A stretch of 64,000 nucleotides of DNA from Isoetes taiwanensis. Lineage: Eukaryota > Streptophyta > Lycopodiopsida > Isoetales > Isoetaceae. The DNA lies in contig JAJEKV010000014.1 of NCBI GenBank assembly GCA_021234155.1, positions 4,605,563 to 4,669,562 of the forward strand. Reading direction: 5' to 3'. Each line of letters opens with the position of its first letter. Positions within the stretch are counted from its first letter, which is position 1. The notes under the pieces were generated by a model. That model searched no databases and was not told the DNA's origin. It saw nothing but the letters and a program-made list of their open reading frames with translations. The translations under genes were made by a program, and so were the position numbers. Of this stretch, positions 44,220 to 59,315 are shown piece by piece.

Positions 44220-45052
44220 CCATGGAAAACTTACTGAAATTAGAGTGCAAATTGGGTCCCTACCACCAATTCTACCGCAAATCGATTTCGGAAGAGTTGG
44301 AGAAGGAAGGAGCTACTTACTGCTGCATCCAGACTTGAAGAATGGAAGCCTTCGTAATAATGGCTCTAGCCAAGAGGTTATTAGTCTCTAGATAGTTTGT
44401 GCTTCATCTAACCCTTGTATGACTAGATGGATGGATAAATCCTCTTTTATGTACTGCTAAGATGATGATGGATGTTTTATTTATGATTATGTATTCTCTT
44501 TCTGTTCCTCCTGTGTGTTGGGGAGTAAGGGTGGGTAGAGACCTGAAAGCTTCCTAGTAGTGATATGTCTCTAGCTAGAACCCTTGAAACACGGTAAATG
44601 CGGCTTGTGCACCAGAGCCCACCTGGCTGTGCATGCTATGTTGTGATTCAGCACCAGATAACGGGTATAATGGTGAAACGGAGGTGGGATCTTGCCTAGC
44701 GTGGCTACGGGATTCCTATAGCATGCTAGGCTTATTTATGGTATATCGCTTATGTTATCTTGTCTTTGTGTTGTTGTTTATAGGATGATGGATGGACCAC
44801 CCTTCGTGGTGGTATATTTTTTTGTATATGATTACTAGGTGCTAATATATAAGTACGCTTCCACTGTATAGGATTTCCCTAGAGGACATGGAATGAATGA
44901 CACCTACGTGTCCTTCACCCGGACACTTGGACATCCGAAGTGGTCCGAGTTAGAAGGAGGACCTTTCCATGGTGATGCAATCACCACGGATGGAGTATTT
45001 ATACGATGGGAGCATCGTATAGATTTTGGGAGCGTCACACTGGTATCAGAGC
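44220..45052 (+). mobile_element. Truncated LTR and primer-binding site, plus orientation
   Basis: Collinear with the minus-strand reading of the LTRs at 47530-49022 and 56146-57667. Shared blocks include CTTTCTGTTCCTCCTGTGT, GAGCCCACCTGGCTGTG, GATTCAGCACCAGATAACG, ACCACCCTTCGTGGTGGTAT and CGTGTCCTTCACC-GGACACTT. It lacks the 5' part and about 450 bp from the middle. It ends GAGCGTCACA (45039) and is followed at 45041-45052 by TGGTATCAGAGC, the plant tRNA-iMet primer-binding site. It is thus the 5' LTR of a plus-oriented element that includes the reading frames downstream. Confidence 0.85.
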
Positions 45053-45685
45053 ATGATTTTGGTAGACCAAATCATTGCACTGGCCATAGTCTAACCCGTT
45101 AGATTGGTTAGTTGTAGGGGACTTTTAATTTAAGCTAAACTATCCCAATTCCATAGCTAGTATGTGTGGTGGCCTAGTTATGGGAGAGTTAAGCTAGTTA
45201 GGGATTAAGGTGTGAGTCATTAGAATCAAGTATGTTAAGTTTTTGAAGAAAATGAGGTCTCTTGTTTCCACGGGCCATAACTTTTTCTAGGTAACTCGGA
45301 TGGAGGCGATTCTTGCATCAATGAGTCGAGACAATCTATTGACTAAGTCGGCATAAGTAGAAGGTGCCGAAATGACATCAAATGGGCACAAGAGCAAAAG
45401 GGGTGTGATTAGCAAAATTGTGCCTTAAAATTCAAATCTAAACATAACATTTTGCTATCACACCTCCATATATTTTTGCATATAAAAAGTCACGCGTATT
45501 TCTGTTGTGTAAAAAATTTTCATTAAAAAAAAATTAAAAAAAAAAAAAAACTGTTTCGTTTTGGTTCCGTCTGCCGCCTCATCCGTCCGCTATAGCCGCT
45601 GGAGAAAACCTCGCTTCCCATTTGTCCTTGGCCGCTGTCGCTGCCCCCGTACCAACGCCTCACTTCCGTACCTTCTCGTGTGCAA

Positions 45686-46778
45686 ATGAGTATGGCTCGT
45701 ACTCGAGGTTATGTTAGCTACTACAACCTCAGCATCCACCAAATCTTCGCCGAGCTTGGCGAGCAGCTCAACGATGACTCGGGGAAGATTGAGGTCCCCT
45801 TGACCGAGCTTGTTCAGCAGTTCGACATAGGGTGCCCTACCCTATCTTCCATCTGATGGAGCGCTTCCTGCTGTTGTTGAATGCCTTAGGGGAGCCTTAC
45901 ACATTGGTGGAACAACCTGATGATCAAGTTTTGAGGCTGGTCAAGTTCTACCCTCCTTCATGCATTGAAGTTGGCGAGGATCAAGCAATCAGGATAGAAG
46001 CCGAAAGAATTATGGAGCTAGCCTGAAGTGATGACACATGCGAGATGGAGAGGGGAGACCCAAAGGCCCGGGGTAGAGAGTATGTCTACCTGGGAGACGT
46101 GCAAGCTATAGGGTCAACGCTCGTCGCCTTGCCAAGATGGAAGAGCGTATGGCAGCTGTATACGCTGCGCAACAAGAAGCTAACCGGGCAGAGCAGCAAC
46201 GTCAAGCTGAGCAACACGTCAAAGAAAATGCTGAGCGAGAGACCCACCATTAGATCCAGCAAGACGAGGAGGAGAACACACAGCGGGCTCCAGACCAGAT
46301 TGAAACCCCCATTGTTAAACGGAGGTGGAAATTCATAGCACGTAAGTCATGGAGCGCCTACAAGGAGAAGCTCAAAAAGGTAGGGAATATTGGCAAGGCC
46401 ATGAACTCTGCCCATCGGCAGGACTGTGTGGACGCCGCTCAACCTCGCCCCGTGACAGAAGGCAAGACCCTTTTTAAGAAGTTGCATAGGTATAGGCACG
46501 GTACCGTGGCGTTGAGAGAGATACGGAAGTATCAGAAGACCACTAAACTTCTGTTACAGAAGCTTCCTTTCCAGTGCCTGGTCTGAGAGATAGCACAGGA
46601 GTATCGGACCGACCTTCAGTTCCAGATCTTTGCTATGCTCGCCCTCCAGGAGGCCGCCGAAGACTACCTGATTGCCCTTTTTAGGGATGCCAACCTCTGT
46701 GCTATCCATGCTAAGAGGATTACCATTATGCCAAAGGATTTGACCTTGCCAAGGAGGATTCGGGGAGACCACAAGTAG
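45686..46778 (+). pseudogene. LTR-element reading frame ending in a histone H3 fold
   Basis: It starts 645 bp after the primer-binding site. The N-terminal part (MSMARTRGYVSYYNLSIHQI, to about residue 50) is unknown. After a frame change, a segment with MERFLLLLNALGEPYTLVEQ follows. After a second shift there is a Gln/Glu/Ala-rich coiled coil (MEERMAAVYAAQQEANRAEQ, from 46137) and a basic linker ([20 protein letters not shown]). Codons 46476-46775 then align without gaps to histone H3 residues 36-135: [18 protein letters not shown] at the alpha-N helix, [30 protein letters not shown] and RRIRG; about 72 of 100 positions equal the plant H3 consensus as I recall it. Differences at H3 Arg63, Arg69, Arg72 and Arg83 are CAG, TGC, TGA and CAG, each one CpG transition from CGN. 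Stops at 46251 and 46584 are C-to-T type. The copy is dead; the fusion predates its decay. Confidence 0.8.
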
Positions 46779-47021: not shown

Positions 47022-47205
47022 ATGGATGCTCCTAATCTCCTCCAATGTTACCAGGATGGTGACCATTGGGATCCGCAAGTCGCATTCGACCTACACCATC
47101 TTTACTTGCTCCAAGAGGTCGACTTGATCACTAATATGCAAGCCCACCTAGGCTATGCTGCCTTCCTCGAGTTTTACACTCAGGAGATGGTTCCTCGTAG
47201 TCTAG

Positions 47206-49035
47206 GACAAGGGGTGTCCTAGACTAATCAGGATGTTCCGGACGTGATGGAACAAAAATTGCCGCAACCCGAGTTTTCTAGAGAAAGTTATGGCCTCCGG
47301 AAGAAAGGGACTGCATTCTGTCAAAAACTCAACTTTACTTCATCTTAAAATTTTAAACTTTTTTCTTCTTAACTAGCTCAATCCTCATATACTTAGGCCA
47401 AAACTCATCCTACTTATGGATTTGGTGTAACTTTCCTACGTTGGAGGTCCCCTACTATCTAAACGGTCTAACGAGTTAGACATGGCCAGTGCTATGATCT
47501 GGTCTACCAAGATCATGCTCTGATACCTTTGTGACGCTCTCCAAACCTATACGATGCTTCCATCATATAAATATGGTAAATCCCCTCTTCCATGGCGACT
47601 ACTCCACCATAGAAAGGCCCTCCGTCTGACTCGAACCACTTGTGATGGGTAAGTGTCCAGGTGAAGGACACGGAGGTGTCATTCGTCCCACGCCTTCTAT
47701 GGGAATCCTATATAGCGGAAGCGTACATACATGTTAGCACCTGGCAACAATACAAATAAATAAGTGGCCCATAATCATCAATATGAATACAACAGAATGC
47801 CACATAACAAAGGAAATGCATCATAAATAAGGGCTCTACCCCGGCTCAGACTTATGGGAATTAACTGACGGCCAAGGCCTCCGGACAACAACAGACAGAA
47901 TCATAACAATGGCGTTGGCTGGCATAGAACAATGGCTAAGGTAGTCCACTCCATCCACCCCTCCTGTGCACACTTTGCAGATAGGCTGGAACATGCTATG
48001 GCGTGATTGTAGCCTTCCGGAGACGCAATCCCATGGAATCACCCTATGGAACTACTCCGGGTTACTCCCCGGTCCGATGAGGCAGGTCGGAGAGGCGTCC
48101 TCTCCCCGAGTATGATGGATCCCTGGGTGTGCTAGAGAACACGTGCCACCTCAGTGACCCCCGCATTCGTACACGACTTACTTTCCTAAATCTAAAGGAC
48201 GGATCACCTGCCCGTTCGAGCCCAGGGCGCCCAATCATATTGGCTCGACTCCTGCAACCCAGAAAGTGTCAGACCCATACCCGGCCCTCTCCGTGACCGG
48301 CTATAAGCCTAGCACACTGTATGAGTCCCGTAGCCGCGCTAGGCGAGACCCCACCCCCGATTCACCATCATACTCGTTATCTGGTGCTGAATCACATCAT
48401 AGCATCCACAGCCAGGTGGGCTCTTGTGCACAGGCCGCATTTAATGGGATTTAAGGGGTTCTAGCTAGAGCATCACTAAATCTAGATAGCCTTTAGGTCT
48501 CTACCCCGCTTAATCCAATAGAACACAGGAGGAACAGAAAGAGAAAATAGAATCAGATACAAACATCCACCATCATCATCATAAGTAGATCATAGAAGAG
48601 AATCTAATCATCCATCTACTCAAACAAGGGTTAGAAGAATACAAGCTAAGCTAAACTAACTAGTATCATAGCTATCTCTCTGGTTCTCCATCCTTCTGGC
48701 TGGAACCAAGGTGAGCAGCAGCTCCTCCTACCAATTTCCCCCAAATCGATTTGGGGCAAATTGGGGTCCCGAGCTGGCAGGTCTACTTTGCCCAATCAAT
48801 TTGGGGCAGGTGGCAACTCTAGATTAGTTATCCCTAATTAATTTAGGTCTTTTTAATATTAGGTCAAGCCCTAAATTCGAATTAGGGTTTGGGGTTAGGT
48901 TTCCACCTTAATAATTAATGATGTGCATTAATTATTCATAATTAATGATGCGCATTAATTATTCATAGTGACATGTCATGTATTTATACCCAAAAGGGCG
49001 TATAAATATGTGGAACGTCACATTCTCCCCACCTT
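47206..49035 (-). mobile_element. LTR flanked by both leader/PBS and PPT, minus orientation
   Basis: LTR 47530-49022 (1493 bp, begins TGTGACGTTCC and ends GAGCGTCACA on the minus strand). On its upstream side (plus 49023-49035) lies the polypurine tract AAGGTGGGGAGAA. On its downstream side (47516-47527) lies GGTATCAGAGC with 5' leader running left to about 47206. A normal 3' LTR would be followed by host DNA, not by a primer-binding site, so this LTR sits between two internal regions. The leader breaks off at a palindromic junction, AGTCTAGGACA-AGGGG-TGTCCTAGACT (47199-47225). Confidence 0.8.
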
Positions 49036-52000
49036 GAAAGTGATGCTGTCCTCAGCATCAAGACTGTTCTTGCTCTGGGCCAACACATGACATGTTGGAA
49101 GCAAGTCTCCCCACCTTAAAGAGGTAATGCGAAATTATAAGTCACACAAAAGTTGTCATGTTCAAGGTGATCAAGTTTGAAATGACGTGTAATGTGCAAT
49201 TTATAACTCGGCGAAAGTTGAACTGTAATGGAAGAATGTTATGTGGAATAAAAAAAATACATATATAGAGCGTATACTATCATCGTGTAAGACCATAGTC
49301 CTGTCAAAAGTCGACAGTCAAGATATAATAGATAAGCAAGCACACTATTGGTCTGTGGTGGAACGTAGCCTATAGGGCCTAGCGGTGGAAATAGAAAACA
49401 CATATGACAACAAAGACATGGGCCGATAATGTTCCCATTATAGCTGTAAATGAAGGTGTCCTATTATGATTATATGCCCATCCCCATTCCTAGGGTGCAT
49501 CTAGCCCGATCCCTCTGCATGAAGGCTGGCCTCCATGATCCCTGCCGGATCTAAGACTTAGGAGATATCGATTAGTGATTGTAGCACATGCTGCTTTCCC
49601 TCGAAACCGGAGTTGATGGCGTCGTTGTTGGCGCAGTTAGAAATCATTGTTTATTCACACACATGTAGCTGATTATATATTATACATAGGCGTAGACATA
49701 AACAACCTCTATTTCTTCTTTTATTATGATACCTATTTATAATTCTCTCATTTTTACTACAACTGATTCTAATCATATTAACTTCTGTCTATATGTCTAG
49801 TATACTCTCCCTTCACTTTACAATTTGTTTTATTACAGTCTACCCTAATTTAATTTTATATATAAATTTTGTTTTCCTATTTTGTTATAGTTTTAACAAT
49901 TCATATATTGCTACCCTCAGTGTTTTACATGCCCACCACATTGGTACTTATCCTTTAATACAATTATGTATTGCATTATATTTTTTCATTTTTAGATATA
50001 TAGTTTGACATTAATTACCCACACACGTTAATCATTTATTATCCATAACCTTTCTAAAACCATAATGTAACTCTCGTTATTCCTTCTATAGTTGTATAAC
50101 ACATACATAATTATCTCATTATATTTTATTTGACTATGTGTTTAAATACTTTTCTCGTTTTGATTATCTTTAAGTGTTTCCTATTCTATTCTATCTTAAC
50201 CATAGGTTACATTCACGTCGATACACATTTGAATTCATTATCTATATTATTCTTATTTTCGTATATTTATCACACATACAGTCACTTTTATATTTACACG
50301 GCACCGGTACATCTCACAGATACATTCGACGCGGCACTGCTAAGTTGATACCGCCCGGGTCGCTATCCAGCAGTGCTATGGCCATGCAATCCTCTTGTAT
50401 CACAGAAGGCCAGTTGTAACAATGGTGTCCATGGCGGAAGCATCGAAAAGATGTCTGATCCTTCCTGAGGCTGTTATATAGTGATGGGTGAGCAGGTACG
50501 GAGTGGTAAGGTATCCTTATTTTGGATCGAGAGTCGAGAGAATTGGTATGACGTAGAAGGAGACTGGATATAACACTATATATCTAAGGAAGAAGTGGTA
50601 TATGATTATCTGCCATAGACCACGTTAGAGAGGTAGTATACTAAGGTGGAAACTGCATTATACGTACCCAGCTCATGAAAGGGAGATCACTTTAGAAGTG
50701 TAGGTTTCGACAATGGTGGTGAAGGTAAGAATGTTGACCTAATAGTGTTTTATTGCCATTTGAATTGTAGTATGATTCACGGAAAGGTAGAGAATAATGG
50801 CACATGAGGATGCGGATCCATAAATTACGGATTATAAAATTATGCATACATAGCATTTCGTAAGGAGATTGATGTTCTGGAGGTGTGCAATAAAGATGCA
50901 AGTGTATCCATGAGTAAGATGACCACGTAGCCACGTGGGTACACTTATCTTGCTAGCAGAAGGTGCAACCGTCTAAAAGCTACAAGGTATATTGGAGCTT
51001 TGCTAAAGCTAGACTATGAAGAAAAGTTGAACTTCAGCTAATGATACATTAGGAAGGCAAGTAATAGAAAATTTGAAGGGACGCTTTGAAGAGTCTAAAG
51101 TGTGGAGTATATACAAGGTAGGTGCCCAATGAACATCTTACCAAGGAGAATGTGCTCTGGACTTGGTATCGTGTGAGTATCCCGAGGAGTAGCTCCACGT
51201 TGGTATATGCGTAACAGGATCATTTAAGGGCATAACAAGAAAAGAAAGGGTGTATAATAGAACTTTTAGTGCACCGTACAAATGTATATGGAAATAATGA
51301 AGATAAGAGTTCCTAGAGTAGATGTTAAGTAGGTTCACTAGGAACTTAGGGTGGCACCTCTCACTGTGGTATTTGTGATTAGAACTCGAGCATGAAGTCG
51401 AACTAGGTTCTTTTTCTATGTATGAATGAGAGACTATGGAAAGTGTGGTGTTAAAACCACAACGGGTATAGTACAATATAACATGAAGTTGAATTATGGT
51501 GGATAATATCATCCACTAGATAGTTATACAGGTGCGGATTATAATTATAGGCTACGACAAAAGTATACACAGAAGGACACATGTATTAAACATGTGGGTA
51601 GTGAGGATTGTACAACACGGTAGGCAAGTATGAGCACCGCTATGTGGTTATGTGCAAGAATGGCATGTGATTCTAGACGTAGGATTGGTTCACAGATGTT
51701 ACCATATCAGATAATAACAAGGTAGCGGTCACGAATGTTGGAAAGTAGTATCAAATACTGTATTAGTAATGATATTAAGGATGTCGACTGCGACATTCAG
51801 ATTTATGTCGTACAGGAAAATAGTAGAATATTCGTGCAAAACGAAGGGGATATTACATGATAAAGTTAGAAATAAGCGTAATGGTACGCTCGTACCTGGA
51901 GGTATCTAATGAGATATGAAGTACTAGAGATAAGCATTGAAGTTATCTCGATTGTTTGGGATTGACTGACGTTGGTAAGTACAACATACTAAGGGACATG

Positions 52001-55000
52001 AAAGGTGTCCAAGTTAGGGAAATAGCTAGAGTAAGTCTAGCATATATGGCGACATTACATTCAAAAATATCCCAATGATAGTTGAAACGAAATGGAAATA
52101 ACAGATAATAGGAGTTTAGCTAGTCAAAGGTTCTAGAGGCCAATGAATTGATTCAGCGTTATAAGCTGAGAGTATCAAGTGGGTGTGGAAATAGTAGGAT
52201 GGATGAAATATCCCTTCCAATAATGGAAGAAGATTAAGATGGTGGCTTTGCCAATTATATAAGTAGGGATAACTGACAAGAGGGCAATACATACCAGTTC
52301 CAAGTCCCAATAAGGAGCAAGACGAGGTGTATAGCAGAGATGGGATGAGATTATATGAATGAGTAGTCTATATATTCTGAGAATGTCCTTCCTCTCGGGG
52401 GAACAATGCTAAATCCCGAGGTAGGGGAATGAGGATCCCTGGTTCGGAAGTACACATTTTCGATAGATTATGATTTTAAGAGCCTTAAGACGATAATGAA
52501 TTGGATAACGCTATGGCGGTTGCTAACGAAGGTTCGGTCATAGGGGTTTTCTATTATGAGAGGGAGAGGGTTCAATGCCTCCATCTCATTATGAGGGAGC
52601 CAAAGAGGACAACATTTGAACCCGATCAAAAGTTGAAGGTGACATGATAGCTTAAGAAAATAGGTTAATTGTGACAAAGCATGGTTGATATTGGGGACAC
52701 AAAGGATATTTAGCTGAAGGAGCCTTTAGAAAAGCTCCTCATCTGGAGTAGACCTTCGGAATTATGGTATAATCCCGTGGGAGGATCATAGTTTATGTAC
52801 ACGACTGGAGTACCATAAGGCACTAAAGGAATGGTTGAAGTAGCTGAGGATCCTATCAAAATATAGGCAGCATATAGAATTCCAACATAGAGTTGGCCAC
52901 TGCCCTGTTGGGAAGTCGGTGGCTTAGCCACATTATAAAGGTACATAGGCAATAGGTCTTGTTTCAAGGAGCTACCAAGCTTATGCTTTAGCTAAGTTAG
53001 AGAGGGCTCTAGTATTGTGGGATGAGAATATATGTTTATCACGTACATACTATGGACCATATGATAAACATCTTAGAGAGGTAATCTATGCAGTGATACG
53101 GGGAAAGAAGGTTGATTGTACCCCAAACTTACCAATGAAGGGTCTGGAGTATGTCTGGAATGTGCAAACAACAGTCAATCTGTTGCATGTTAAGGAAGGA
53201 GGCTGTAGTTGTCACCTGAAATAATTGTCAACGGCCAATAGAACAAGGCTTAAGATGATGGGGTTGAATAGTACGATAGTACAATTCTTGGCTGGATGAC
53301 GAATATGTATCTGGTGTAAATCAAATGTGGTTGTGGAAACATGAAAGGATAGATATCCAACATGATGCCTGCTTGGATAAGGAAGAGTCAAAGTCAATGG
53401 GTTATGCAGAGTTATAATTTTAAACGTCTAGGGCTAGAACATGAATGCAAGCCGGGGTGGCAGGATATTAACTATCCGGAGAATACCAGACGTGGGGGTT
53501 TAGGTAGAATTAGAAAATGCATGATGAGCCTCGGTAACTTACAAATTTCACGAAAGCTCACTCCCTACATCAGAACACGACTATGGCTTATGGAGGTATG
53601 CCAAGTCATTTGTAATGCCGGCATAGCAGCATGACAGCAACACAGAGGGACATAATGTCTAATAGTTCTAAGGTGGATAACGGCGGTAAACGATAACCCC
53701 CAATGATATGCGGGTTAAAAAGATACATGGAAATTTAAAGACATAAACGCAACCTTTAAGGTAGAGACTATTGTATCATACGATATATAATAGTGGGTTA
53801 ACAGCCAACAAGAGGGTTAAAAGGTATCTGAAGGAGTAAATGGGTCGGTAACCCTACAGAATGAAAATAAAGCAGTTCACTTTTGAAAATAGGGCATGGG
53901 TGTGGTGGATTTGCGGATGCCAAGTTACGTGTGAGGGCGCAATAATGGCATGACATCGGCATAGAAGAACGTAAGAATTAACAATTCAAAGATCTACGAG
54001 GATGCTAAAGCATAGGGTTCCAAGAAGATGCGGGGTAAAAGTCATAGAGAAAATTGAGCGCTTAACTGTTCCCTTGGAACCTAGTGAAGCATACAACATA
54101 TAGCGGTAATTTAGAAGATAACAAGAGGGTGATAGAAGATATGAAATGTCAGATCACTTTGTGATCATACGACCAAAGAAATTATAGATGTACAGGTATT
54201 GCGCAGCATTGGGAGTAAAAAAAATAACACGTTTCAAGGCCAGGGTGAAGGAGATCGATGATAGTCCCGAGAAGGTAGCAAAAAAGAAGACAAAATTAGT
54301 GGACTATTATTCATTACGTGGGGCTACCGGGCAGAAAGGCAGCAGGGGACTTTGAAAAACCGTTGAAGACTTAAATAGGGGCCGTAGGGATAAAAGGATT
54401 TCAATTTCTGGGATAACATGGCGAACAATAATTTTACAAGGACCCTAAGAGTAGGTGTCGCTGTAGAAGGGTGCCGGATTGGTACTAACATTTGGGACTA
54501 TTGTTCTAATTCCCTAGGATGGGTAGATTATTCATAGAACTCAGTGATCCAGTGACGCTAAAGTAATGGTTGGAAGGAGTTTGCCCCAATCAAATTTAGG
54601 TATTCTTGAAGGTGTTGATGAGCCAAAAATGGTGGCATACCTTCAAGTGTTAGGGTAGAAAAACTTGAAAAGAGGTTTAGCCATCGCAAGTTGACAGGCA
54701 TATGATGCAAGTATATACTTACTGGGATATAGGCGGTGAAGAGTGGTACAAACTGGTACCAAGGTTTATGCTCTTGATAGATTCGAGTGAGATGTTGATA
54801 TAGCTGTGGGAGTTCGAACTCAAGCAATTACGATGTGTTACCGAGTATGTGTCGTGACATAAAGAAAAGTAGTGAAGGGTGGTGGTACAATTTACAAACC
54901 CAAGGCCTAGAGGGTTGCTGCATGGCAGTGTCTGGTTGGTTGGGTCAAGAGAAGTATATTGTCTGAGAAGAAAGACAGTCAAGGCTTTGAGACTAAAAGA

Positions 55001-55472
55001 AACAGTATCAGGTATGGTTGGTTCATAATGCTACTTAGTTCCTGACATGTGAAGTCGAATGAAATAGCTTTTAAAGCAGATGAAGGTACTAGAAATTAAA
55101 CGAAGGCAGGGTTGAAAGAATTTTGCTACCAAGGCATCGACTAGAGAAAAATTCAGTACTGGAAAATTCCGTACTGCTAGGGTATTGCTGCGAGCGAACA
55201 TTTATCATAGGGGAGAGCGGATTAGGATCCACGTAGAAGATTCTATCTCGCCCGGAAGAGTCACCGTCCATCTCGCATCGAGAAAGTGCGATATTATGGT
55301 TGGGGAACCCATTGGCTGAGGCCAATAATGTCGCTTGAGGTGAGCGCACCTTGGTTGCACAAGTCTGGTGGAGTTGTTGCCACCACAACGTGGGTTCACG
55401 GAAGACGGTCTTCTAATTTAAATAGAAAATAGAGCTACTATAAATAAGACGAGAACTATTGCATTCCTACGT
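49036..55472 (-). mobile_element. Internal region of the minus-oriented element, no recognisable domains
   Basis: About 6.4 kb between the polypurine tract and the SINE. Neither strand shows protease, RT, RNase H or integrase motifs, and no frame exceeds about 125 codons. The base composition is strongly asymmetric. From about 49640 to 50340 the plus strand is T/C-rich, and from about 50420 to 55440 it is G/A-rich with scattered stops. A second AAGGTGGGGAGAC tract lies near 49105-49117. The region fits a large non-autonomous derivative (LARD-like) or a completely decayed body. I cannot tell which. Confidence 0.4.
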
Positions 55473-55711
55473 AAAGGAGCTTAGCCCATTGGTAAAAGGG
55501 TTGGCTTGGGCATAGGAGGTTAGGGGTTCAATCCCACTATATGCCTCTTTCTCTTAAAAAGAGTTGTGGTCTAGAAATAGAACATCAAACATATATAAGA
55601 AATATATAAAACATAAATATTCAATAAAAAAAGTTGGCATGTTGGTAAGGACTTGAAGTTAGAATTAAGAGGTCATGGGTTTAAAACATGGGCAAAAAAA
55701 AAAAAAAAAAA
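55473..55711 (+). mobile_element. tRNA-derived SINE, possibly dimeric
   Basis: From about 55473: a box A-like TTAGCCCATTGGTAAAAGG (55481-55499) and, 43 bp on, a box B-like GGGTTCAATCCC (55524-55535), matching an RNA polymerase III internal promoter at tRNA spacing. A second, weaker unit at about 55632-55692 has TTGGCATGTTGGTAAGG and GTCATGGGTTTAAAACATGG. The sequence ends in 18 A residues (55694-55711). No clear target duplication was found. It sits in the minus-oriented LTR element's leader/internal junction, so it inserted after that element. Confidence 0.65.
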
Positions 55712-55819
55712 GTCAACGCTCGGTGCGCACTTTGCATTTTGAGTGCTTAAAATTGAAAAATAAAGTCCTATTTTGCAAAGTGCCGGTTTAGGGTTTTGGG
55801 CTACTTTTTTTATGCTGGG

Positions 55820-57667
55820 GACTTGGACAAAGGGTGTTCTAGACTAATTAGGATGTTCTGGAGCGATGGAATAAAAATGGCTGAAATCCGAGTTTCCTAG
55901 AGAAAGTGTGGCCTCCGGAAGAAAGGGACTGCATTCTGTCGAAAACTCAACATAACTTCATCTAAAATTTAAAATTTTTTCTTCTTAACTAGCTCAATCC
56001 TCGTATACTTAGGCCAAAACTCATCCTACTTATAGATTTGGTGTAACTTTCCTACATTGGAGGTCCCCTACTATCTAAACGGTCTAACGAGTTAGACATG
56101 GCCAGTGCTATGATCTGGTCTACCAAGATCATGCTCTGATATCATTGTGATGCTCTCTGAACTTATATGATGCTCCCATCGTATAAATACGGGAAATCCC
56201 CTCTTCCATGGCGACTACTCCACCATAGAAAGGCCCTCCGTCTGACTCGGACCACTTGTGATGGGCAAATGTCCATGTGAAGGACACGGTGGTGTCATTT
56301 GTCCCACGCCTTCTATGGGAATCCTATATACCGGAAGCGTACATACATGTTAGCACCTGGCAACAATACAAATAAATAATATACCACCACGAAGGGTGGC
56401 CCATCATCATCAATACGAATACAACAGAATACCACATAACAAAGGAAATGCATCATAAATAAGGGCTCTACCCCGGCTCAGACTCATGGGAATCAACTGA
56501 CGGCCAAGGCCTCCGAACAACAACAGACAGAATCATAACAATGGCGTTGGCTGGCATAGAACAATGGCTAGGGTAGTCCACTCCATCCACCCCTCCTGTG
56601 CACACTTTGCAGATAAGGCTGGAACATGCTATGGCGTGATTGTAGCCTTCCGGAGACGCAATCCTATGGAACTACTCCGGGTTACATCTCCCAGGTCCGA
56701 TGAGGCAGGTCGGAGAGGCGTCCCCTTCCCGAGTATGACAAATCCCTGGGTGTGCTAGAGAACACGTGCCACCTCAGTGACCCCCCCATTCGTACCCGAC
56801 TTACTTCCCTAAATCTAAAGGCCGGCTCACCTGCCCATTCGAGCCCAGGGCGCCCAATCATATTGGCTCGACTCCTGCGACCCAAGAAGTGTCAGACCCA
56901 TACCCAGCCCTCTCTGTGACCAGCTATAAGCCTAGCACACTGTAGGAGTCCCGTAGCCACGCTAGGCGGGACCCCACCCCCGATTCACCATCATACTCGT
57001 TATCTGGTGCTGAATCACATGATAGCATCCACAGCCAGGTGGGCTCTTGTGCACAGGCCGCATTTAATGGGATTTAAGGGGTCCTAGCTAGGAGCATCAC
57101 TAAATCTAGATAGCCTTTAGGTCTCTACCCCCCTTAATCCAATAGAAGACAGGAGGAACAGAAAGAGAAAACAGAATCAGATACAAACATCCATCATCAT
57201 TATCATAAGTAGATCATAGAATAGAATCTAATCGTCCATCTGCTTAAACAAGGGTTAGAAGAATACAAGCTACGCTAAACTAACTGGTCTCATAGCTATC
57301 TCTCTGGTTCTCCATCCTTCTGGCTGGAACCAAGGTGAGCAGCAGCTCCTCCTCCACCAATTTCCCCCAAATCGATTTGGGGCAAATTGGGGTGGAAGCC
57401 CCAATTTGGGTGTCCCGAGCTGGCAGGTCTACCTTGCCCAATCAATTTGGGCCAGGTGGCAGCTCTAGATTAGTTATCCCTAATTAATTTAGGTCTTTTT
57501 AATATTAGGTTAAGCCCTAAATTCGAATTAGGGTTTAGGGTTAGGTTTCCACCTTAATAATTAATGATGTGCATTAATTATTCATAATTAATGATGCGCA
57601 TTAATTTTCATAGTAACATGTCATGTATTTATACCCAAAAGGGCATATAAATACGTGGAATGTCACA
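55820..57667 (-). mobile_element. 5' LTR, primer-binding site and leader of the minus-oriented element
   Basis: LTR 56146-57667 (1522 bp; minus-strand start TGTGACATTCC, end GAGCATCACA). The primer-binding site TGATATCAGAGC is at 56133-56144 and a leader extends left to about 55820, collinear with 47206-47529. Relative to the LTR at 47530-49022 it has extra segments (for example ATACCACCACGAAGGGTGG near 56380 and GGAAGCCCCAATTTGG near 57393) and many substitutions, so the two LTRs are not a recent identical pair. The right edge (57667) abuts reading-frame DNA. Confidence 0.85.
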
Positions 57668-58876
57668 TATTTAGAGAGGGCGATTGTGTGTGATATGTCG
57701 GGGAGTGACTCCCATGCTGCCAACGTCCTGAAAGGCAAACTCCGATGGGCGAAGAACCCACCTGTTGTGATACATGAAGGCCAAAAATACTTCGACGTAA
57801 AGTTTGATTTGACCATTCTTATGGACCAATACGTCGACGATAAAGCTTTGCCTGCAGAGAAAGCAAAACCGTCAGCTATACTAGATGAGGAAGATGGTGA
57901 GGAGGTCAGAGAGAATGCCTTTGTTCGTTGGAAGCAGTTAGCTGAGCAAATGCCCTTACATCGAGATCAGGACGCTCGACTTACAGGACTGGATACTCTC
58001 CCGGTTTCCACCACCAAGGTCAAGAATACCTCCTATTAGAGGATATCATGTGGACATACCACATTATTGCTGACCTCAAGTTCAAGAAGAAGACACACAA
58101 TCTATACGAGCTCTCCGTATTGCATGGACGATTTCATCAACTTCACCTCAGCTGAGCTCCCTTTTGAGGTACAACAATTGCTTCAATTTCACCAGGAGAC
58201 CATTGAGCCAGTTGATGCCCTCTTGCACTCGCGACATCTTATATTGCAAGAGGCCCCATCATAGCCACCTGGTGAAGCTTTTGTTGCCATGGGATACCTT
58301 GTCCCAAATATTAATATGGTGGATATCCCCTCATAGTCAGATGAGGAAGGGGAAGATCTTTGTGACACCTAAGATCATTTGATGGAAGAGAAGCAAGAAG
58401 CTAAGGAAGAAGAGGTGACCATGGACCTCGACAAAGAGGTGGCTATCTCTATTATTCCTGAGGTTAGTGCCTTGGGTACTCGTTTCTTCCTTTCAGATTT
58501 TAAGCAAGGATATGTCTTTTTTGTGGCACGGGATCTAGCTCTGAAGGCCGAGGCATCATGATGGGCACTTTGTGCTCTATCCACCTTAGCTGGGCATAAG
58601 AAGCTCCAGCCTCGCATGCCCACATATGTGCTCATGCGTCGGGATTTTGCTTTGACCGCTCTAGGGTAGGATATTGCAGTATGGATGAGTATGAAGCTTC
58701 TTGTGGCTGCTCCGTTGGCCACGAAATTTCCCCTAGAGATTGCCTCCGCAGTCTCACGATTAGCTCCAGTGTCACATTACTTCGACACCACCAGCCGCCA
58801 CCGCTTCCTATGCAGATGGATGAGGATGCAAGATCTAGCTCCTGAATATATTCTTGTTATAGATGTATGGCCTTAG

Positions 58877-59315
58877 TCCATTAGGAAATATGTACCAACA
58901 AATTTGGCACTTGTATGCCATCCTTTAATATAACTTTTTATTATTTTATGTCTTACCCTCCCTCTCTAACGACTGCCTTGCATGCGAATTATAAGTTAAT
59001 GGTTGTATATCTTGCTTATCTCTACTCTTTTTTTATATTTTAGACAGTGCACGTTCCTCTCCATGGACGACCCTCGTACAACCCGGTCGCTTAACTCCAG
59101 AGCAAGAGCTCATACTTATGAAGCATCAACTTACTGAGCTCTAAGCCTATGCACTTCAAAACAACCCGCCAGTGATACTGCAGGAGTACGATTCTAAGAT
59201 TCCTGTTGTAGCCAATCACCAGCCACCACCACTAGCTGCACCAGTACCTGCTCCAGCTACATCCACATGCTCAAAGCATACACGGTGCAGTTCATCATCT
59301 GATGCTAGTTCTAAT
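58877..59315 (+). pseudogene. Spacer and third element reading frame (fragment), cut by the copia element
   Basis: After an AT-rich spacer and a pyrimidine-rich leader ending TTTTATATTTTAG, an ATG at 59063 reads MDDPRTTRSL. The better frame from 59079 reads LTPEQELILMKHQLTEL, a TAA (one step from CAA), then YALQNNPPVILQEYDSKIPV and a Pro/Ala-rich run (PPPLAAPVPAPATS), stopping at the copia LTR at 59316. A charged helix followed by a Pro-rich linker would suit a Gag-like protein, but no diagnostic motif is present. The frame presumably continues beyond the copia insertion, outside the window. Confidence 0.4.

Follow-up and report, generated by a model that had tools for sequence, protein, structure and literature searches.

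We have analyzed a stretch of 64,000 nucleotides of the Isoetes taiwanensis genome, referred to here as the window. It contains an old, broken member of a high-copy Ty3/gypsy chromovirus family, in which the first open reading frame (ORF1) ends in a histone H3 core. The LTR end and the primer-binding site that an earlier note on this DNA had placed upstream of the H3 frame are both present, the LTR ending at 45039 and the motif TGGTATCAGAGC, which we take to be a primer-binding site of the plant initiator-Met tRNA type, lying at 45041-45052. The features of this copy, and of a second element nested within it, are as follows.

44393..45039, plus strand: 3' part of the 5' LTR of the H3 element, ending ...GCGTCACA (75-81% match to the related LTRs of the nested element; LTR end seen directly)
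45041..45052, plus strand: primer-binding site TGGTATCAGAGC (exact motif; the same motif follows the LTR in copy L012)
45686..46110, plus strand: element-specific N-terminal domain of ORF1, frameshifted near 45829 (tblastn against the intact ORF1 of L019, 31% over 45662-45826 and 52% over 45829-46110)
46131..46475, plus strand: ORF1 linker, charged and basic ahead of the H3 core, with a TAG stop at 46251 (tblastn of 46131-46769 against the L019 ORF1, 54%)
46338..46349, plus strand: ARKS tetrapeptide in the ORF1 linker (from the translation; the same in L019 and L061)
46476..46775, plus strand: histone H3 core (H3 residues 36-135), with TGA at 46584 and the terminal stop at 46776-46778 (PF00125, E=2e-33; 74/100 against host H3)
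47022..47216, plus strand: 5' part of ORF2 (tblastn against ORF2 of L024, 46%, to 47216, and of L025, 64%, to 47195)
47202..57668, minus strand: nested related LTR element splitting ORF2 (direct repeats 47202-49023 and 55822-57668, 91.9% identical, inverted with respect to the LTR of the H3 element)
57668..58756, plus strand: 3' part of ORF2, past the nested insertion (tblastn against ORF2 of L024, 40%, to 58756, and of L025, 39%, to 58747)
59013..59204, plus strand: start of gag (tblastn against the L022 gag, 50% over 64 aa)

The 5' part of the 5' LTR is not recognisable in the window copy, and Rfam and tRNA scans of the window gave no matches. With proteins of better-preserved copies as queries, ORF1 can be traced from 45662 to 46775. 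The gapless alignment of 46476-46775 to H3 residues 36-135 described earlier was confirmed, with 74 of the 100 residues identical to host H3, and the frame 46359-46778 matches the Pfam Histone family when its single TGA is read as X. The plus-strand frame 46077-46778 in which the core had been reported does carry it but is not intact: it is interrupted by TAG at 46251 and TGA at 46584, and the N-terminal part of ORF1 changes frame near 45829. The replacement of the H3 tail by element sequence also holds, the region before residues 36-39 being element-specific. The core itself has lost R63, R69 and R83, has its stop at R72 and reads FAML at residues 87-90. As regards gag-pol, the window holds the start of gag only and the chromodomain is absent from it. 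With two in-frame stops, a frameshift and a nested insertion, this copy is thus a decayed relic.

The repeats of the nested element seem to contain an LTR plus a leader of ~320 bp. In the 3' copy, leader follows the LTR end and a partial primer-binding site (47517-47526, minus strand) where flank would be expected, which suggests a tandem or recombinant structure. Since the interior has no coding sequence of the family apart from a weak gag match at 50359-50475, the nested element looks non-autonomous.

The N-terminal 50 residues of the window ORF1 match at least 149 other places in the genome at 49-80% identity, among the best 150 of 582 candidates. Fifteen of these places were sampled, at every tenth rank; a trace of H3 lies within 1.4 kb in nine of them, in three cases spanning just 21-33 residues, and none was found within that distance in the other six. 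Many of the frames displayed for this lineage contain stops or shifts. The lineage to which the window copy belongs looks old and decayed.

Better copies have the order LTR, iMet-type primer-binding site, ORF1, ORF2 and gag-PR-RT-RH-INT-chromodomain. ORF1 consists of an element-specific N-terminal domain, a charged linker and the C-terminal H3 core, the element domain ahead of H3 comprising ~350 residues; ORF2, between ORF1 and gag, has ~460 residues. The LTRs are ~1.6-1.7 kb long and start with TGTGACGTTCC in four of the five copies tried, the fifth pair (L017/L033) giving no LTR match. In the copy L012+L031 the LTR ends in GCGTCACA and is followed by TGGTATCAGAGC, a polypurine tract AAGGAGGGGAGAA precedes the 3' LTR, the two LTRs are 96.5% identical, and the element is flanked by a 5-bp target site duplication, GTGGC, observed in this one copy only. 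The LTR-LTR distance (K2P) is 0.035-0.071 in four copies, which at a substitution rate of 7e-9 per site per year corresponds to insertion a few million years ago. Pfam matches to Retrotrans_gag, RVP_2 and RVT_1 were found in L022:5446-8094 and to RT_RNaseH and Integrase_H2C2 in L022:8098-9900, where rve scored 30.1 bits, under the cut-off of 32.6. The gag carries a Ty3 capsid domain; a CCHC motif is visible in L021, and the Pfam zinc knuckle in gag falls below the cut-off. The chromodomain PF00385 is found at the end of pol, above the cut-off, in both copies scanned (E=3e-9 in L030, 8e-10 in L032). Thus the element has the TG...CA LTR ends, target site duplication, primer-binding site, polypurine tract, PR-RT-RNase H-INT order and C-terminal integrase chromodomain of a Ty3/gypsy chromovirus. 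With a chromodomain at the end of pol and H3 in ORF1, it is a chromovirus with both a histone reader and a histone. This pairing would suit a role restricted to integration targeting, with ORF1 anchoring the integration complex on nucleosomes or at sites of H3-H4 assembly, beside the integrase chromodomain; contact between ORF1 and integrase is, however, hypothetical, and we think such a restricted role quite improbable.

Neither of the other two upstream protein regions has a credible relative in Pfam. Sequence searches of the PDB with these regions found nothing at E<=10 in one case and gave best E values of 1.9 and 0.3 in two others, the last with ORF2; no relative of the N-terminal domain was found in IMG/VR. 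A possible paralogy of ORF1 and ORF2 has no support (hhalign probability 0.1%).

The genome searched, the only one in this analysis, comprises 1,658,258,908 bases in 1110 contigs. A search with PF00125 gave 8705 candidates, of which the best 150 all exceed the cut-off. In the 15 highest-scoring matches the alignment begins at profile position 2, as for a full-length H3, and the eight of them examined (L001-L008) are complete host H3 genes. These eight have Y41, E77, L90 and either S87 or T87, which we take to be a mixture of the marks that separate H3.1 from H3.3 in angiosperms. The start lies at profile positions 4-25, most often at 20, in the other 135 matches, whose open frames reach up to 494 residues and part of which may be host variants. 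Annotation should take into account that many 'histone H3' matches in this genome are element genes. A query taken from the H3 end of lineage B (below) found at least 150 places with 87-100% identity, among the best 150 of 8846 candidates, and all copy numbers given here are lower bounds.

Twenty loci of 9.9 kb were picked from the PF00125 list for a good H3 score and a long frame. They fall into lineages A (n=8), B (n=11) and C (n=1). In 16 of the 20, one of which (L023) reads beyond its usual stop, a single open frame runs from the ORF1 N-terminal domain through H3; ORF1 is broken in the remaining four (L024-L027). Copies not chosen by their H3 were obtained with the start of the lineage-B ORF2 as query. 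Among the best 150 of 3820 candidates, 88 have an H3 from the lineage-B list no more than 3 kb upstream in the same orientation, at a spacing of 225-300 bp in 86 cases and of 747 and 2053 bp in the other two. Every third of the 62 places without a listed H3 was sampled, and 18 of these 20 have a recognisable H3; many of the 18 are frameshifted or truncated, with weak or scrambled traces only in L044 and L049. The remaining two (L038, L048) have no H3 within 950 bp of ORF2. The fusion, which the earlier note proposed to look for in other copies, thus recurs in the family, at 150 or more lineage-B places and upstream of most ORF2s.

Selection on the H3 core was estimated from copies among the 20 loci, whose choice by H3 score and frame length biases dN downward: pooled Nei-Gojobori dN/dS is 0.018 in the core and 0.152 in the rest of ORF1 for lineage A (n=7), and 0.047 and 0.144, respectively, for lineage B (n=8). 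Where a suitable open frame was present among the 20 loci, the ratio was 0.097 for the ORF2 of A (4 copies), 0.140 for that of B (6 copies) and 0.108 for the start of gag-pol (6 copies). A codon maximum likelihood analysis of the 20 cores yielded an omega of 0.032, with lnL -1741.2 as against -2061.5 at omega fixed to 1. For a small set of copies selected by ORF2 the H3 ratio is higher, at 0.068 (n=9), based on the nine of 18 with H3 that gave ungapped single-frame matches; the nine with frameshifts, gaps or poor matches were dropped and stops were masked, and bias remains. Comparison of the eight lineage-A with the 11 lineage-B copies shows saturation at synonymous sites, dS being finite in only 7 of 88 pairs, with dN 0.128, and H3 is the sole part of ORF1 still alignable as nucleotides in the A-B pairs examined. 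The ratios across copies, which had been proposed as a check, are therefore 0.018-0.068, far below 1, and, as judged from these sequence comparisons, show that purifying selection on the element H3 cores is very strong in lineages that diverged long ago.

Capture of genes by transposons is common, and a host H3 retrocopy might have been captured once and then amplified without function. Fungal hAT elements also carry H3, as described in the parts available to us of two papers (PMC6710886, PMC3538342). Such a passenger is nevertheless extremely improbable in view of the low ratios, the synonymous saturation between lineages and the survival of H3 alone as alignable nucleotide sequence within ORF1. 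The one-off capture of an H3 retrocopy, raised earlier as the alternative to a conserved fusion, is ruled out by recurrence together with purifying selection.

All 20 cores are 96 residues long, align without gaps to host H3 and are identical to host canonical H3 at 80-86 of the 96 residues; PF00125 was matched by all six ORF1s scanned. The canonical length, without a CENH3-type loop 1 insertion, that had been noted for the window copy is thus a property of all 20, and a CENH3 origin is ruled out. The resemblance to CENH3 seen earlier in AAEDYL is not needed, given the identity to host canonical H3. Sixty-six of 95 H3 positions are invariant in the 20 copies and the same as in the host. The nine positions that we assume to form the H3-H3 interface are unchanged in every copy, and 12 of the 17 positions presumed to contact DNA are invariant. 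The five that vary are 41, 42, 53, 63 and 64, with Y41F in five copies of lineage B, R42K in 8/8 of A, K64R in 11/11 of B, and K53N and R63C as single occurrences. Most other changes at DNA-contact or interface positions are conservative.

Four host residues are changed in all 20 copies, namely S86 (to T or A), S87 (to H or F), E105 (to G or S) and T107 (to A), and V89 is I in 19 of them; the window copy shares A107 and altered residues 86 and 87. Lineage B may have an altered fold owing to changes at 102-107. Residues 87-90, which we take to be the SAVL/AAIG assembly site, read HAIL or FAIL in 19 of the 20 element cores and FAVL in L028, as against SAVL or TAVL in the host copies examined. 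According to the part available to us of a review of viral histones, SAVL or AAIG in helix alpha-2 sets the assembly pathway (PMC9145170).

The modifiable H3 tail, with K4, K9, K27 and K36, is absent. The tetrapeptide ARKS, presumably the sequence context of H3 K9 and K27, was seen in three linkers only, those of L019, L061 and the window copy, where it lies about 50 residues ahead of the core; the linkers have PRKSG or PQRSG in A and PVRGG or PVKGG in B. ARKS may be a histone mimic, or else what is left of the tail. The stretch of linker previously called a coiled coil is Glu/Gln-rich and charged in A, and Gln/Asp-rich and of low complexity in B.

The reading that we favour, and hold to be fairly probable, is that ORF1 of this multi-copy Ty3/gypsy chromovirus family joins an element domain and linker to an H3 core that was probably captured once from a host-type H3, and that the protein putatively enters or docks on host nucleosomes. 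The single capture is argued from the residue changes common to all copies and not from the codon tree, which is saturated; in it the element H3s are not one clade apart from the host, the position of the host is uninformative and there is no root. A PDB search with one lineage-A ORF1 placed an H3.3 first (7ux9_E, 178.7 bits); this match is compatible with an H3.3 donor and is not proof of one. The H3 of ORF1 would pair with host H4 and would enter or dock on nucleosomes in place of or beside host H3, so that the host H3 tail would be swapped for the element's own domain. The element protein would thereby be brought onto chromatin, where, probably together with ORF2, it could affect the fate of the element through the site of integration, through escape from silencing based on the H3 tail, or through both.

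The kept nucleosome-facing residues could instead serve a decoy. ORF1 would then bind free H4 or H3-H4 chaperones, and would starve or misdirect host H3 deposition on new element copies, without being a stable part of the nucleosome. Such a decoy is in keeping with the preserved histone fold and with the alteration in element copies of patch 86-89, part of the assembly-pathway site as given in the available part of the review (PMC9145170). A decoy, however, need not keep the DNA contacts and the H3-H3 interface, and yet all nine interface positions and 12 of 17 DNA-contact positions are invariant, with most of the remaining changes conservative. It is on this ground that we infer H3-H4 pairing and presence in the nucleosome, and we consider the decoy unlikely. 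Retroelements are known to read chromatin via chromodomains; one that encodes a core histone would, if the nucleosomal reading is true, write itself into chromatin. This reading makes testable the idea of a selfish element that places its own histone in host nucleosomes and evades tail-based silencing, and the element would offer a natural, long-selected, tail-replaced H3.

No histone-carrying retroelement was found in the literature searched, which was covered in part, mostly as titles and openings of abstracts with few subscription papers or bioRxiv preprints. The word 'histone' is absent from the main texts, as available, of two Isoetes genome papers (one of them PMC8566536). The comparisons that follow draw on the available portions of the papers cited. 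Plant and fungal chromoviruses such as SM-Tcn1 of Selaginella share with the H3 element the LTRs, gag, PR-RT-RH-INT order and chromodomain at the end of pol (PMC2864245). SM-Tcn1, a Tcn1-like element of 5.7 kb, is described with gag and pol only, whereas the H3 element has two extra ORFs upstream of gag, one with the H3 core; a figure legend in the same paper mentions an extra ORF of unknown function in some elements (PMC2864245). Bdelloid rotifer LTR retrotransposons have likewise acquired extra ORFs, which are modular and common to several elements, but their ORF3 is a GDSL esterase or a DEDDy exonuclease and not H3, and 'histone' does not occur in the main text available (PMC5408684).

Single viral histones, namely the H4 of bracoviruses, the H3 of the Manila clam xenomavirus and the singlet H3s of NCLDVs, resemble the H3 element in that one host-like histone is carried (PMC9145170). 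Over the fold and alpha-N helix the xenomavirus H3 shows 77% identity; its tail is longer and divergent, and it reads SAIL at the assembly site (PMC9145170), where most element cores have HAIL or FAIL. Unlike the element H3, which is fused behind the ~350-residue element domain of a reverse-transcribing element, these histones are carried by DNA viruses or polydnaviriforms; no word beginning with 'retro' or 'LTR' occurs in the main text of that review as available (PMC9145170). Fungal hAT transposons are a further case of a mobile element amplifying H3, in tens or hundreds of copies, and the event in Mycosphaerellaceae is old, about 100 My (PMC3538342, PMC6710886). The hAT elements, however, are DNA transposons and not retroelements, in which the H3 or H3-like gene is a separate ORF of the autonomous form, without a partner ORF; a chimeric protein is mentioned for Pyrenophora, and in Pseudocercospora the elements have been inactivated by RIP (PMC3538342, PMC6710886).

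ORF1 and ORF2 are linked in type. ORF1-A occurs with ORF2-A in 8/8 A loci and ORF1-B with ORF2-B in 10/11 B loci, the exception (L022) being without ORF2, and the single C locus has an ORF1 and ORF2 of its own types; among the 18 A or B loci with both ORFs, no crossing of A and B types is seen. The backbones are much less distinct. LTR identity is 82.1% between A and B and 81.9% within A (18/20 loci usable), and gag identity is 79.0% and 77.8% (17/20 loci), whereas H3 identity is 70.4% and 90.3% (20/20 loci); copies within B are more alike (LTR 86.5%, gag 83.9%). For example, L009 (A) and L012 (B) are 89.6% identical through the LTR, after which only an island of H3 aligns, at 72.9%, until the end of ORF2 and gag, from where identity is 83.7% onward. 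It would thus appear that recombination transfers ORF1 and ORF2 jointly from one backbone to another, and the distribution of types suggests that the two proteins probably work together.

Their position upstream of gag and their co-segregation, together with the basic linker, would also be consistent with a role in the virus-like particle, the H3 core packing or condensing the nucleic acid of the element or assembling ORF1 in the particle as an accessory to Gag. Against this, a separate gag with a Ty3 capsid domain exists, with its CCHC motif in L021, and H3 does not wrap nucleic acid without H4; a particle role seems to us distinctly doubtful.

An extension of the nucleosomal reading, which we put forward as a tentative possibility, is that the element makes nucleosomes of its own. 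Tail-swapped H3 on new copies or on target chromatin would block the H3K9 and H3K27 silencing marks of the host, and the integrase chromodomain would read nucleosomes marked by ORF1 or by the host. The N-terminal domain and ORF2 would form linked, swappable cassettes that diversify in the manner of an arms race, and the H3 core, having to fit both host H4 and DNA, would stay fixed. We have not seen this form of diversification, in which a shared backbone carries exchangeable ORF1-ORF2 cassettes, described for plant LTR elements. In L022, the B locus without ORF2, gag-pol directly follows ORF1 (L022:5180-5446); the open frames of this copy are long.
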